Assembly (NCBI GenBank): GCA_021775555.1
Contig: JAJFHP010000003.1
Span: forward strand, 53,949 to 117,948
Length of the DNA: 64,000 nucleotides
Reading direction: 5' to 3'
Source of the DNA: Hyphomicrobiales bacterium
GTDB lineage: Bacteria; Pseudomonadota; Alphaproteobacteria; Rhizobiales; Methyloligellaceae
The notes under the pieces were generated by a model. The model made no database searches and was not told the DNA's origin. It saw only the letters and a list, made by a program, of their open reading frames with translations. Numbering within the stretch: position 1 is the first letter of the stretch; each line of letters opens with the position of its first letter. A program made the translations under genes and the position numbers. This document shows positions 53,288 to 57,540 of this stretch, piece by piece.

Positions 53288-53854
53288 ATGTCGATCAATC
53301 GTAAATTATTTGGAGCAGGCATCACCGCCGCTGCCGCAGGCGTCGTTGCTCTCGGTCTCACAATGGGCACTGCTCACAGCCAGATGAAAAACTGCTGTGA
53401 CGATACCAACGTCAATTATTCAAAGGACCTCTGGTCCGCTCTGGCTAAGGCCTCTCTGGCCGGCCCAAGCGGCAAGGCGGATGCCCCCTATAAGGGCCAG
53501 GCGCCCCATGGCGCGGTTCTGGAAACCATTCATTCTGAAGTCACCGTTGGCGGCCATAAAGGCAAGGTTGTGGTGAAGCGGAATTATGGTGGTAAAGGCG
53601 TGAGCATTGATGCCGTCAAAGGCGACCGCGCCAAGTTCATCAAGGCCGTTACGGTCATGTTCAAGCGTGAAGTCGGATACGACAAGGACAATAATGACTG
53701 GTTCTGGGCAAAATATAAGCCAGATGGATCACTCCATACGAACCCGAAGGGCATGATGCTTGCCGGGCGCGTCATGAAAGGCGCGGACAAGGGCTGCATT
53801 GCCTGCCATTCGGCAGTCAAGGAGCAGGACTATGTGTTCGGGAAGCAGAACTAG
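53288..53854 (+). CDS. periplasmic cytochrome P460 / cytochrome c'-beta family protein
   Basis: 188 aa with an AGGAGG site eight bases upstream. A signal peptide (cleavage near AHS at about 31) is followed by a single domain with one heme c site, CIACHS at 170-175, close to the C-terminus as in the P460 family. NDWFWAKYKPDGSLHTNPKG and the DYVFGKQN end are also family-like. P460 members oxidise hydroxylamine or bind NO; the Lys-heme crosslink of true P460 cannot be assigned by eye. Two adjacent Cys near 36-37 are odd. It ends in a strong terminator, so it is a single-gene unit. Confidence 0.88.
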   Translation: MSINRKLFGAGITAAAAGVVALGLTMGTAHSQMKNCCDDTNVNYSKDLWSALAKASLAGPSGKADAPYKGQAPHGAVLETIHSEVTVGGHKGKVVVKRNYGGKGVSIDAVKGDRAKFIKAVTVMFKREVGYDKDNNDWFWAKYKPDGSLHTNPKGMMLAGRVMKGADKGCIACHSAVKEQDYVFGKQN

Positions 53855-54116: not shown

Positions 54117-54404
54117 ATGAAGTTTCGTCCACTCCATGATCGCGTCGTTGTACAGCGCATCGAAGAGAACATGAAAACCGCAGGCGGTATCATCATACCT
54201 GATACCGCAGCGGAAAAGCCGCAAACCGGTAAAGTTGTCGCAGTTGGCCCGGGTGCCAGAGGCGAAGACGGCAAAATTGAGCCGCTTGATGTTAAAGCTG
54301 GCGACAAGGTGCTATTTGGCAAATGGTCAGGTACCGAAGTCAAACTCGACGGTGATGATCTGCTCATCATGAAAGAGTCCGACATCATGGGCGTGCTGAA
54401 GTAG
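54117..54404 (+). CDS. groES: co-chaperonin GroES
   Basis: 95 aa. The heptameric lid for GroEL. It begins [17 protein letters not shown]; the mobile loop is near residues 17-35 ([13 protein letters not shown]) and [13 protein letters not shown] follows. Normal length. First gene of the heat-shock operon, 86 bp ahead of groEL, under the CIRCE element. Confidence 0.98.
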
Positions 54405-54481
54405 CCGCTGACATGACCCGGATCGGCGTGAAAGCGCCATTTGCCAAAAATTACAACAGACACAACCCCCAAGATCAGTAG

Positions 54482-56143
<1,662 letters not shown>

Positions 56144-56211: not shown

Positions 56212-56261
56212 ACGAGTAATGGAATGCCTTGCAGCACGTGTACGACTGTGCGAAAAAGCTC

Positions 56262-56348
56262 TTGTCATCAAGAGAAGGGCTGGCGCCCTCGCCAACCTGC
56301 CGATCCGCGGCAAGGTGGTATCCGAAACTTACGGGATGTGGCTGACGA
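56262..56348 (+). ncRNA. structured leader resembling SAM-I/SAM-IV superfamily riboswitches
   Basis: Four helices can be drawn. P1: TTGTCA (56262-56267) with TGACGA (56343-56348). A short P2: GGGC (56277-56280) with GCCC (56285-56288). P3: ACCTGCCG (56295-56302) with CGGCA-A-GGT (56308-56316), with one bulged A. P4: ATCCG (56320-56324) with CGGGAT (56332-56337). Bases matching SAM-I core positions as I recall them are ATCAAGAG after P1, CCAACC before P3 and AAGGTG after it. Against it, P2 is very short and the base opposite U7 in P1 is C, not A. No promoter was found by eye. It lies between the groEL terminator and the orphan gene at 56434. Confidence 0.42.
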
Positions 56349-56399
56349 CCCGGTTTTGAAACGGGACACAGCAACCCAAGCGGAAGTTAAAGTCGCCAG

Positions 56400-56427
56400 T
56401 CCTCCTCGGCACACTGCTGAAGGAGGA
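56400..56427 (+). promoter_or_regulatory. Shine-Dalgarno-sequestering hairpin
   Basis: TCCTCCT at 56400-56406 pairs perfectly with AGGAGGA at 56421-56427 across a 14-base loop. The right arm is the ribosome site of the gene at 56434. This is the arrangement of a translation switch, and it sits 51 bases after the riboswitch-like element. A further hairpin lies between (CCCGGTTT at 56349-56356 with AAACGGG at 56359-56365). Confidence 0.7.
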
Positions 56428-56433
56428 TTTTTT

Positions 56434-56781
56434 ATGTCAACGCAACAGCAATATCTCGCGCAATCCACCAAGCCCTCCCTGCTGGATAAAACCAGTCATA
56501 GCCCCACTGCGCTCACACAAAGCGAACTCGCACTCGACCTCCTCATTATCGAGGCGGGATTGAGGTTAAAAGTCCTACCGCTTCGATGTGCCACGATCAG
56601 AGGTCACCTACTCAGCCTCAGCGTCGTAGAAAGGCGCAAACGTCAACGCATACTTTTTGAGCTGAGCGGCAGTGGACCTCTCAGGATTGTCGATGTCGGA
56701 CTGTTTGCGGATTCGGTTTCCCGTCACCCGGAGGTGGCTGAGCGTCTGTGGCACGCCTTGCGATCAATCTCACATCGCTAA
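56434..56781 (+). CDS. orphan protein of 115 aa behind a structured leader
   Basis: 115 aa from the ATG at 56434, seven bases after a perfect AGGAGG; the frame is open far upstream but that part overlaps the leader. Not recognised. The first 35 residues are polar and Ser/Thr-rich, then a helical hydrophobic stretch (ELALDLLIIEAGLRLKVLPL), a basic VVERRKRQR patch near 76, and a FELSGSGPLRIVDVGLF strand region. No signal peptide, no cysteine pair. The real gene status is supported by the ribosome site and the leader. Convergent with the membrane protein gene. Confidence 0.7.
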   Translation: MSTQQQYLAQSTKPSLLDKTSHSPTALTQSELALDLLIIEAGLRLKVLPLRCATIRGHLLSLSVVERRKRQRILFELSGSGPLRIVDVGLFADSVSRHPEVAERLWHALRSISHR

Positions 56782-56852: not shown

Positions 56853-57524
56853 CTATGCGGTAGCGGCAACTGACACCCTGTGCGCCTGCCTGGCCTCCCC
56901 AACCTGCGCCAGTACAATCAGATGCAGGATTATGAAGATTGGCACGCCAAATGTTGGAATTAGAACCAAGGGTAAATCTCCCATAGCAGAAGACGTCACT
57001 CCCTCGACCAGGCCAGGAATGTGTTCACGCGCCATGATCCCGGTACCAACCGCTACAACGAAGTCGAGCAGTCCCATAATATGGACGGCAAGAAACCTGT
57101 TGCTTGCAAGAGACAGGTGCCCGCGTGCCAGTGCCATTGCCGTAAAGGGCGCACCAATACCGACTGCTACATCTCCAATACCTGCCGGGAACGCAAAAAA
57201 GCCAGGCAGATGGCCAAACGCGTAGAGCATTAAAAAGCCGCCGCCCAGCACTCGCCAACCCTGCAGTGCTGTCAGCAAAGCCGGATCAAGCGATAGCGCC
57301 CATGCCTTGAAGCCCGGTAACGAAAACAAGGCCAGCGCGAAAAAGAGTGGCGGACCTACAATTGCTGACAGCGTCAAAATGGGCGCCACTTCTGGCAGAA
57401 AGGCAAACGATCCTTTTATGGCTAGCGCTACTATCGCGCTGAACCACAATGCCAACAGGACCCCACCCAGGATCCATTGCAACTCGGAAGTTTTCCATTT
57501 CGATGTTCTTTCATATCCGGTCAT
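56853..57524 (-). CDS. six-helix membrane protein next to MarR regulator
   Basis: 223 aa from the ATG at 57524, which has GGAG six bases upstream; an ATG four codons earlier (57536) lacks a site. About six membrane helices, with little outside the membrane. There is a GHLPGFFAFPAGIGDVAVGI segment in the middle and a LMLYAFGHLP helix before it. I do not recognise a family. It follows marR by 72 bp on the same strand, and a palindrome like one before marR lies just upstream, so MarR probably controls it. Export or sensing of a small compound is possible but unproven. Confidence 0.75.
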   Translation of the reverse strand: MTGYERTSKWKTSELQWILGGVLLALWFSAIVALAIKGSFAFLPEVAPILTLSAIVGPPLFFALALFSLPGFKAWALSLDPALLTALQGWRVLGGGFLMLYAFGHLPGFFAFPAGIGDVAVGIGAPFTAMALARGHLSLASNRFLAVHIMGLLDFVVAVGTGIMAREHIPGLVEGVTSSAMGDLPLVLIPTFGVPIFIILHLIVLAQVGEARQAHRVSVAATA

Positions 57525-57540
57525 TTCAATCTCCATTTTA

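Follow-up and report, generated by a model that had tools for sequence, protein, structure and literature searches.

A SAM-I/IV riboswitch with a putative P2-based switch upstream of an undescribed small protein in Hyphomicrobiales

The 64,000-nucleotide stretch of contig JAJFHP010000003.1 from a Hyphomicrobiales bacterium (hereafter the window) carries a SAM-I/IV riboswitch, a sensor class for S-adenosylmethionine (SAM), at 56260-56388 of its forward strand, and we predict, with a probability of roughly 0.78, that it halts translation of the following 115-codon gene when SAM is plentiful by letting a hairpin form at 56400-56427 that sequesters the Shine-Dalgarno (SD) sequence. When SAM is scarce, a strand made of the junction J1/2, the 5' arm of helix P2 and the P2 loop (56272-56285) would leave the aptamer and pair with 56394-56407, and this antisequestor pairing would tie up the anti-SD strand and leave the AGGAGG at 56421-56426 free. 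If SAM were bound while the aptamer is being transcribed, P2 would be retained in the ligand-binding core, and the anti-SD strand would be released to pair with AGGAGG and turn the gene off. The moving part of the sensor is likely the second helix (P2) and not the first, an unusual route. A preliminary description of the locus had proposed a SAM-superfamily riboswitch with an SD hairpin before an uncharacterised gene, which the Rfam match reported here bears out; a P2-based strand competing with the SD hairpin was absent from it.

The features are as follows. Pair counts refer to 30 leaders picked by eye, 21 of the 79 loci found in the order and 9 of 29 from other families of the class.

56260-56388 (+): SAM-I/IV riboswitch aptamer, RF01725 (cmscan 54.4 bits, gathering score 41.1)
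56266-56338 (+): helix P1, 56266-56269 with 56335-56338 (cmscan alignment; 100% of cells paired, one pair with a two-sided change)
56274-56290 (+): P2 hairpin, G56274-C56290 and 56276-56280 with 56285-56289, loop UGGC at 56281-56284, one bulged A (cmscan alignment; 100% of cells paired)
56291-56319 (+): P3 hairpin with bulged A56312 (cmscan alignment; 100% of cells paired)
56322-56334 (+): helix P4, CCG 56322-56324 with CGG 56332-56334, weak here and longer in metA-type relatives (read from the sequence and relatives; pairs not counted)
56304-56384 (+): likely pseudoknot PK-2, P3 loop UCCGC 56304-56308 with GCGGA 56380-56384 (sequence reading; MAFFT alignment with many gaps at this place, 54.7% of cells paired and two-sided changes in 4 of 5 pairs)
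56341-56372 (+): P5 hairpin, 56341-56344 with 56369-56372 (cmscan alignment; 56.9% of cells paired, gappy region)
56272-56285 (+): putative switching strand GAGAAGGGCUGGCG, J1/2 with the P2 5' arm and P2 loop (13 of 14 pairs with 56394-56407; permutation tests; pair counts)
56394-56407 (+): putative antisequestor partner CGCCAGUCCUCCUC, including the anti-SD strand 56400-56406 (complementarity, pair counts, permutation test)
56400-56427 (+): SD-sequestering hairpin with an outer stem of 7 perfect base pairs (82.2% of cells paired)
56421-56426 (+): SD sequence AGGAGG (sequence)
56428-56433 (+): U6 tract 3' of the hairpin, possibly with a second role as terminator (sequence; T run of at least 5 in 42 of 66 scored named relatives, of 72)
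56434-56781 (+): gene for a 115-amino-acid member of an undescribed helical protein family, stop codon included (profile, selection and structure analyses)

The aptamer and its class

The Rfam comparison that the preliminary description had suggested as a check was carried out with cmscan on the whole window against all of Rfam 15, and returned SAM-I/IV (RF01725) as the sole gathering-level match (E = 3.7e-6 over the window, 4.6e-8 when an 801-base stretch was searched). The score lies above the curated gathering score, the alignment spans the full model (1-99), the match is the best of its clan at this place, and the site is the only RF01725 match at E <= 0.001 in the window's genome. P2 forms a single helix with one bulged base, lacking both the kink-turn internal loop of SAM-I (RF00162) and the division into P2a and P2b of SAM-IV (RF00634). 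The relevant passages of the literature describe SAM-I/IV as a variant class without an internal loop in P2 (PMC2864571), in which P2 is unsplit, PK-1 is absent and P4 is present (PMC6890682, which cites Trausch 2014 for the crystal structure); the consulted part of PMC12452182 merely lists the class, and the SAM riboswitch in that of PMC12530212 belongs to a Methylophaga. As such, the short P2 without a kink-turn, which the preliminary description had counted against its own proposal, is a feature of the class on both points, and the aptamer is, as judged by its sequence, an unremarkable representative of an established class.

The helices, the ATCAAGAG, CCAACC and AAGGTG blocks and the perfect 7-base-pair SD hairpin were all present where they had initially been placed. 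In the SAM-I-type core around J1/2 and P3, the CAT, GAG, CCAACCTGC and GGCAAGGTGG columns show no variation across the 30 aligned leaders, with the bases between CAT and GAG nearly so, and the ligand would accordingly be SAM if sequence is a guide. The aptamer extends beyond P1 by a further hairpin (56341-56344 with 56369-56372) and a likely pseudoknot strand (56380-56384); P4, P5 and PK-2 can be drawn; the alignment has many gaps at the latter two, which reach 57% and 55% of paired cells and show several two-sided changes. Across the complete OFF structure (P1, P2, P3, P5, PK-2 and the SD hairpin), 85.5% of cells are paired and 12 pairs show two-sided changes, a number reached by 3 of 500 shuffles. 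The folding energy of 56262-56433, in contrast, is not significant (z = -1.49 for the minimum free energy (MFE); 16 of 200 shuffles fold equally well) and was dropped as evidence, and P1 is missing from the plain MFE structure of that segment. Homology and conserved pairing, and not folding energy, thus set the element apart from chance, which counters the earlier concern that it might be a chance arrangement.

The P2 strand and its downstream complement

The strand GAGAAGGGCUGGCG is complementary to CGCCAGUCCUCCUC at 13 of 14 positions, and this pairing is mutually exclusive with both P2 and the SD hairpin. The last part of CGCCAGUCCUCCUC is the anti-SD strand, whose UCCUCCU (56400-56406) forms a perfect 7-base-pair stem with AGGAGGA (56421-56427) ahead of the ATG start codon at 56434; the predicted energy of this hairpin alone is -16.8 kcal/mol. 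Between lineages, P2 and leader vary together, as in CUGGCG/CGCCAG, CUGACG/CGUCAG, GGGUCGACGC/GCGUCGACCC, CGGGGCGACGC/GCGUCGCUCCG and others.

This joint variation was assessed by a permutation test in which each P2 12-mer was scored for its best ungapped pairing, both with the leader downstream of it and with leaders permuted among loci, re-optimised each time so that registers were not hand-picked (20,000 permutations, giving a floor of p = 5e-5). The 56 loci comprised 27 unique family/P2 combinations of the 79 order loci and 29 of 39 hit rows from other families of the class. The native score was 22.1 against 18.3 (standard deviation (sd) 0.58) in the order set and 19.8 against 16.7 (sd 0.57) in the second set, both at p = 5e-5, and 20.9 against 17.3 (sd 0.40) in the merged set, where 0 of 20,000 permutations did as well. 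The match was again found at p = 5e-5 with one locus per family (n = 33), and the own leader beats the other-family mean in 45 of 56 loci. The same test over the 56 loci gave no signal for the P1 3' strand (p = 0.45) or the P3 strand (p = 0.67) against the own downstream leader; P1 as the switching strand was set aside. In the order set the P2 window gave p = 0.10 against the 90 nucleotides upstream. Pair counts agree, since 94.1% of cells of the antisequestor helix are paired in the 30 leaders versus 37-59% when it is slid by 1-3 columns. Its covariation score is 0.201 against 0.164 (sd 0.007) in shuffles, and 11 of its cells carry a two-sided change against 4.0 in shuffles, both values unreached in 500. 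The pair 56283/56396 is G-C in 18 and A-U in 10 of 30 leaders, and 56283 lies in the P2 loop, unpaired in the aptamer.

Predicted folding of growing transcripts fits a choice taken while the RNA is still being made, with P2 kept in the core by SAM. Window RNA adopts the antisequestor fold when cut off at 56408 or 56418, and with bases up to 56428 added the SD hairpin prevails (-63.8 kcal/mol); at full length the leader reaches -64.7 kcal/mol with the SD hairpin against -57.1 kcal/mol with the antisequestor enforced. Among the 42 loci that precede the small protein family described below, the MFE structure of RNA ending just past the anti-SD strand contains the antisequestor in 33, and at full length the antisequestor is retained in 15 while the SD sequence is paired with the anti-SD element in 34. 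By eye, a possible alternative pairing of approximately 56342-56351 with 56392-56401 was noticed in the window. A UCUUG/CAAGA hairpin of the window's MFE structure was set aside, as it was not seen by eye in the sequences of two other loci (L003 and L004).

Several observations weigh against the proposed switch. In a folding model that includes neither ligand nor pseudoknots, the OFF hairpin is 7.6 kcal/mol more stable for the unliganded full-length window RNA, and the ON state must therefore be kinetic or helped. The truncated MFE lacks the antisequestor in 9 of the 42 small-protein loci, all of them from the family f44 (Cohaesibacter) and with CTGACG in P2, and the full MFE leaves the SD sequence unpaired with the anti-SD element in 8 of 42. 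In 11 of 56 loci the own leader does no better than the other-family mean, and the permutations leave some relatedness among loci in place. The 30 leaders were chosen by eye, and only 2 antisequestor pairs show a two-sided change, which 88 of 500 shuffles match. Duplex energies against shuffled leaders were weak: p <= 0.01 was reached by 17 of 79 loci, and p <= 0.05 by none of the 19 f44 loci. The cause is a P2 rich in GC and complementary to itself, which pairs with much; we set this test aside in favour of permuting leaders between loci. Finally, two genus-mates (G028 and G029, 99 and 98% complete) have neither riboswitch nor gene, so that the system must be dispensable there.

The small protein and the distribution of the element

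The gene downstream of the aptamer encodes a protein for which Pfam gave no family at E 0.1 (as for 43 of 43 members) and NCBIfam no match at E 1 (four members scanned). A profile search collected 49 proteins including the window's own, chiefly from the window's genus and from the families f41 and f44, which we take to be Stappiaceae and Cohaesibacteraceae, the named ones being annotated as hypothetical or uncharacterized. The gene, which the preliminary description called an orphan, is one as far as annotation goes, yet it is part of a conserved family. Over 397 genomes of the order the profile gave 43 matches, 42 directly behind the riboswitch and one weak one at 6.5e-4 with two stops; conversely, the small protein follows every one of the 42 riboswitch loci of the three families, one copy (L059 in G379) being split by a frame change. 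Most of the profile's sequences come from the window's group and Cohaesibacter, and some Stappiaceae members score only about 1e-5, so that remoter members could be missed; hhalign between the profiles of the three groups gave 95.1, 95.1 and 97.5%. The median ratio of nonsynonymous to synonymous substitution rates (dN/dS) is 0.18 over 54 within-family pairs, which are not independent, and argues for a real gene (0.49 for the pair L003/L004 of the window's genus). An AlphaFold2 model of the window protein is helical (predicted local distance difference test score 81.9, predicted template modelling score 0.71, first 22 residues of low confidence), and in that of a Roseibium member three helices lie at corresponding positions, with a lower confidence of 75.7. 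No convincing structural relative was found, the best match of the profile to PDB sequences having E = 0.097. M1, D87 and F91 are invariant in 43 aligned members. Methionine makes up 0.93% of residues past the start in 42 members, which would suit a protein made at methionine shortage.

SAM-I/IV elements occur in 76 of the 397 order genomes (79 sites) and in 35 of 385 genomes drawn from the class, the 35 counting the window's own and a second one from the order, so the initial impression that such an element would be unusual in alphaproteobacteria did not hold. In the window's family it was found in 4 of 30 genomes, all of the window's genus, which has 8 genomes in the set. The 79 order loci precede the small protein in 42 cases (4 in the window's genus, 19 in f41 and 19 in f44), a metA-type homoserine O-succinyltransferase in 15 (PF04204 on one example, others by eye), a beta-eliminating-lyase or threonine-aldolase-like gene in 15 (L050, L053, L060, L062, L063, L067, L070-L074, L076, L080, L081 and L083; PF01212 on L083 only, others by eye) and other or unclear open reading frames (ORFs) in 7. 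Scanning named genomes by pattern yielded 72 loci with this core, many from genomes already in the order set; of these 72, 63 belong to Roseibium/Labrenzia, Stappia, Pseudovibrio, Pannonibacter, Breoghania, Hongsoonwoonella or Cohaesibacter/Cohaesibacteraceae, 3 to metagenome-assembled genomes (MAGs) of the window's group and 6 to other names. The small protein follows in 53 by motif and in 11 more by an SD-defined ORF (by eye); of the remainder, 2 begin with a match but run off the end of the locus, 2 are apparently frameshifted, another 2 are too short for a judgement, and 2 (L089 and L133) are followed by something else. The leader matched nothing in plasmid and phage collections.

Each of the 42 small-protein genomes has a single SAM-I/IV site, and SAM-II (RF00521) was found in 41 of them, the exception being 64% complete. 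The window's genome has two SAM-II sites, before metX-metW and before the O-succinylhomoserine sulfhydrylase gene, and SAM-II also precedes the sulfhydrylase gene in the one Stappiaceae and the one Cohaesibacter genome examined. These SAM-II switches therefore appear to control methionine synthesis in the same cell; as those enzymes already have a SAM sensor, the single SAM-I/IV element would serve the small protein. A metA-type homoserine O-succinyltransferase was found in 0 of 24 genomes (22 of the 42 and the 2 genus-mates without the riboswitch), compared with 8 of 14 control genomes, and the window's genome gave no match to an S-adenosylhomocysteine riboswitch, though controls also gave none. 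The next gene after the 115-codon gene lies on the opposite strand in the window; in L113 and L147 an ORF on the same strand follows after about 200 nucleotides, and read-through is possible there. We infer that the protein acts on something other than the expression of committed enzymes, and our guess is that it is a small soluble helical effector wanted at low SAM, separate from methionine synthesis itself. More broadly, we tentatively propose, at slightly less than even odds, that alphaproteobacterial SAM-I/IV elements share the J1/2-P2 5' strand with the P2 loop, and not P1, as the exchanged strand, and that in Stappiaceae, Cohaesibacteraceae and the window's genus they serve one client, a new small helical protein made only at SAM shortage to manage the SAM/methionine economy post-translationally alongside the SAM-II-controlled enzymes.

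Alternative readings, known systems and further observations

The hairpin, predicted here at -18.5 kcal/mol, lies directly 5' of the U6 tract, and it might be an intrinsic terminator, with the SD sequence in its 3' arm a by-product or second layer of transcription attenuation. A T run of at least 5 occurs within 10 nucleotides of GGAGG in 42 of the 66 named loci in which GGAGG and a start were found (of 72), and many Stappiaceae genes have a TTG start inside the T tract, as if the tract were retained. We nevertheless regard attenuation in place of translational control as unlikely, given that T runs are shorter in the other 24 of the 66, that by eye the U tract before the start is absent in several Cohaesibacter and metA-type loci, and that a terminator scan did not list this hairpin, although a loop of this size may fall outside its stated limit of 3-8. 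The U6 tract may instead add termination to translational control. It is most improbable that the product is the RNA itself, a terminated riboswitch fragment acting as a small RNA (sRNA) with the ORF secondary. Riboswitch-derived RNAs have a precedent in the order, where the metZ and metA SAM-II leaders of S. meliloti give rise to sRNAs according to PMC9373788, and the aptamer core and hairpin are conserved far above the protein; against this stand the purifying selection on the ORF noted above, the kept start and SD spacing, and a profile common to three families. We also consider it highly unlikely that the pocket has drifted to another ligand or that the element is an ON switch, as might be suspected of a client gene without a known methionine tie and a SAM binding that is predicted. 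Most core columns are invariant in all 30 aligned leaders, and other loci of the class precede metA-type genes (Pfam-supported on the one example) and metF-like genes (by eye), clients that fit a SAM ligand and an OFF switch.

The translational OFF switch proposed here can be compared with known systems as far as the cited passages describe them. With SAM-I/IV of Weinberg 2010 (PMC2864571) it shares the aptamer sequence along with P1, an unbroken P2, P3, a hairpin after P1 and a likely P4 and 3' pseudoknot strand; the class passages give no expression platform, whereas here J1/2-P2 would switch and the client is an undescribed small protein. The translational SAM-I riboswitch of Xanthomonas campestris (PMC7270179) likewise places an SD-sequestering hairpin under a SAM-I-type aptamer, but its aptamer has a kink-turn and uncharged initiator tRNA on the anti-SD strand frees the SD sequence, while here P2 can bind the anti-SD strand. 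SAM-II before metA, metZ and metX in Rhizobiales (PMC4239095, PMC9373788) provides SAM control in the same order, and in 41 of the 42 genomes here, through another fold and over biosynthetic enzymes. Strand-exchange riboswitches (PMC10907184) also have a switching sequence common to aptamer and expression platform; the exchanged strand here would be J1/2-P2 with its loop. Among the matches listed from titles and abstract beginnings of open-licence PubMed Central papers, none concerned SAM-I/IV before this protein family or a P2 antisequestor, which is not proof of absence; as far as the literature was searched, a P2-based antisequestor common to alphaproteobacterial members and a dedicated undescribed client are new. 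P2-based strand exchange, supported by the test across 33 families, would supply a concrete mechanism of switching for the SAM-I/IV class, and two SAM riboswitch classes would serve different clients in one cell. As a riboswitch is a good clue to gene purpose, it ties a hypothetical or uncharacterized family to SAM supply in 42 of 397 order genomes and hence to a testable role, in lineages that include the culturable Roseibium, Stappia, Pseudovibrio and Cohaesibacter.

Some loci elsewhere deserve mention. In L089 (MAG Xanthobacteraceae Baikal-deep-G39), tandem SAM-I/IV aptamers lie at 1469-1571 and 1658-1763 (73.9 and 64.5 bits), the first leading into a three-codon ORF that stops at once. A DUF3293 gene lies directly behind SAM-I/IV in L162 (PF11697 confirmed) and L133 (by eye), a second client of unknown function. 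In other families, L174, L179 and L180 carry a small protein with a WTHLY pattern behind SAM-I/IV (by eye), without a Pfam match for L174 and L180. Multiple copies were seen in G065 (3 sites, two preceding similar ORFs, L006 and L040), G096 (2 sites 46 kb apart on one contig) and G690 (4 sites).

Around the riboswitch gene, five loci (L112, L113, L127, L147 and L148) were compared. groEL precedes it in the window (54117-56143) and in three genus-mates, an apparent groEL locus lies near it in two Stappiaceae (by eye), and a hisG/hisZ/hisS-like block stands beside it in a Cohaesibacter (by eye) as in the window; the shared groEL/his neighbourhood suggests common descent of the locus. A 227-amino-acid protein without a Pfam match is encoded at 56853-57536 on the reverse strand and was not found in the three genus-mates' loci of about 3 kb, and 53288-53854, upstream of groES, encodes a cytochrome P460 domain protein (PF16694).
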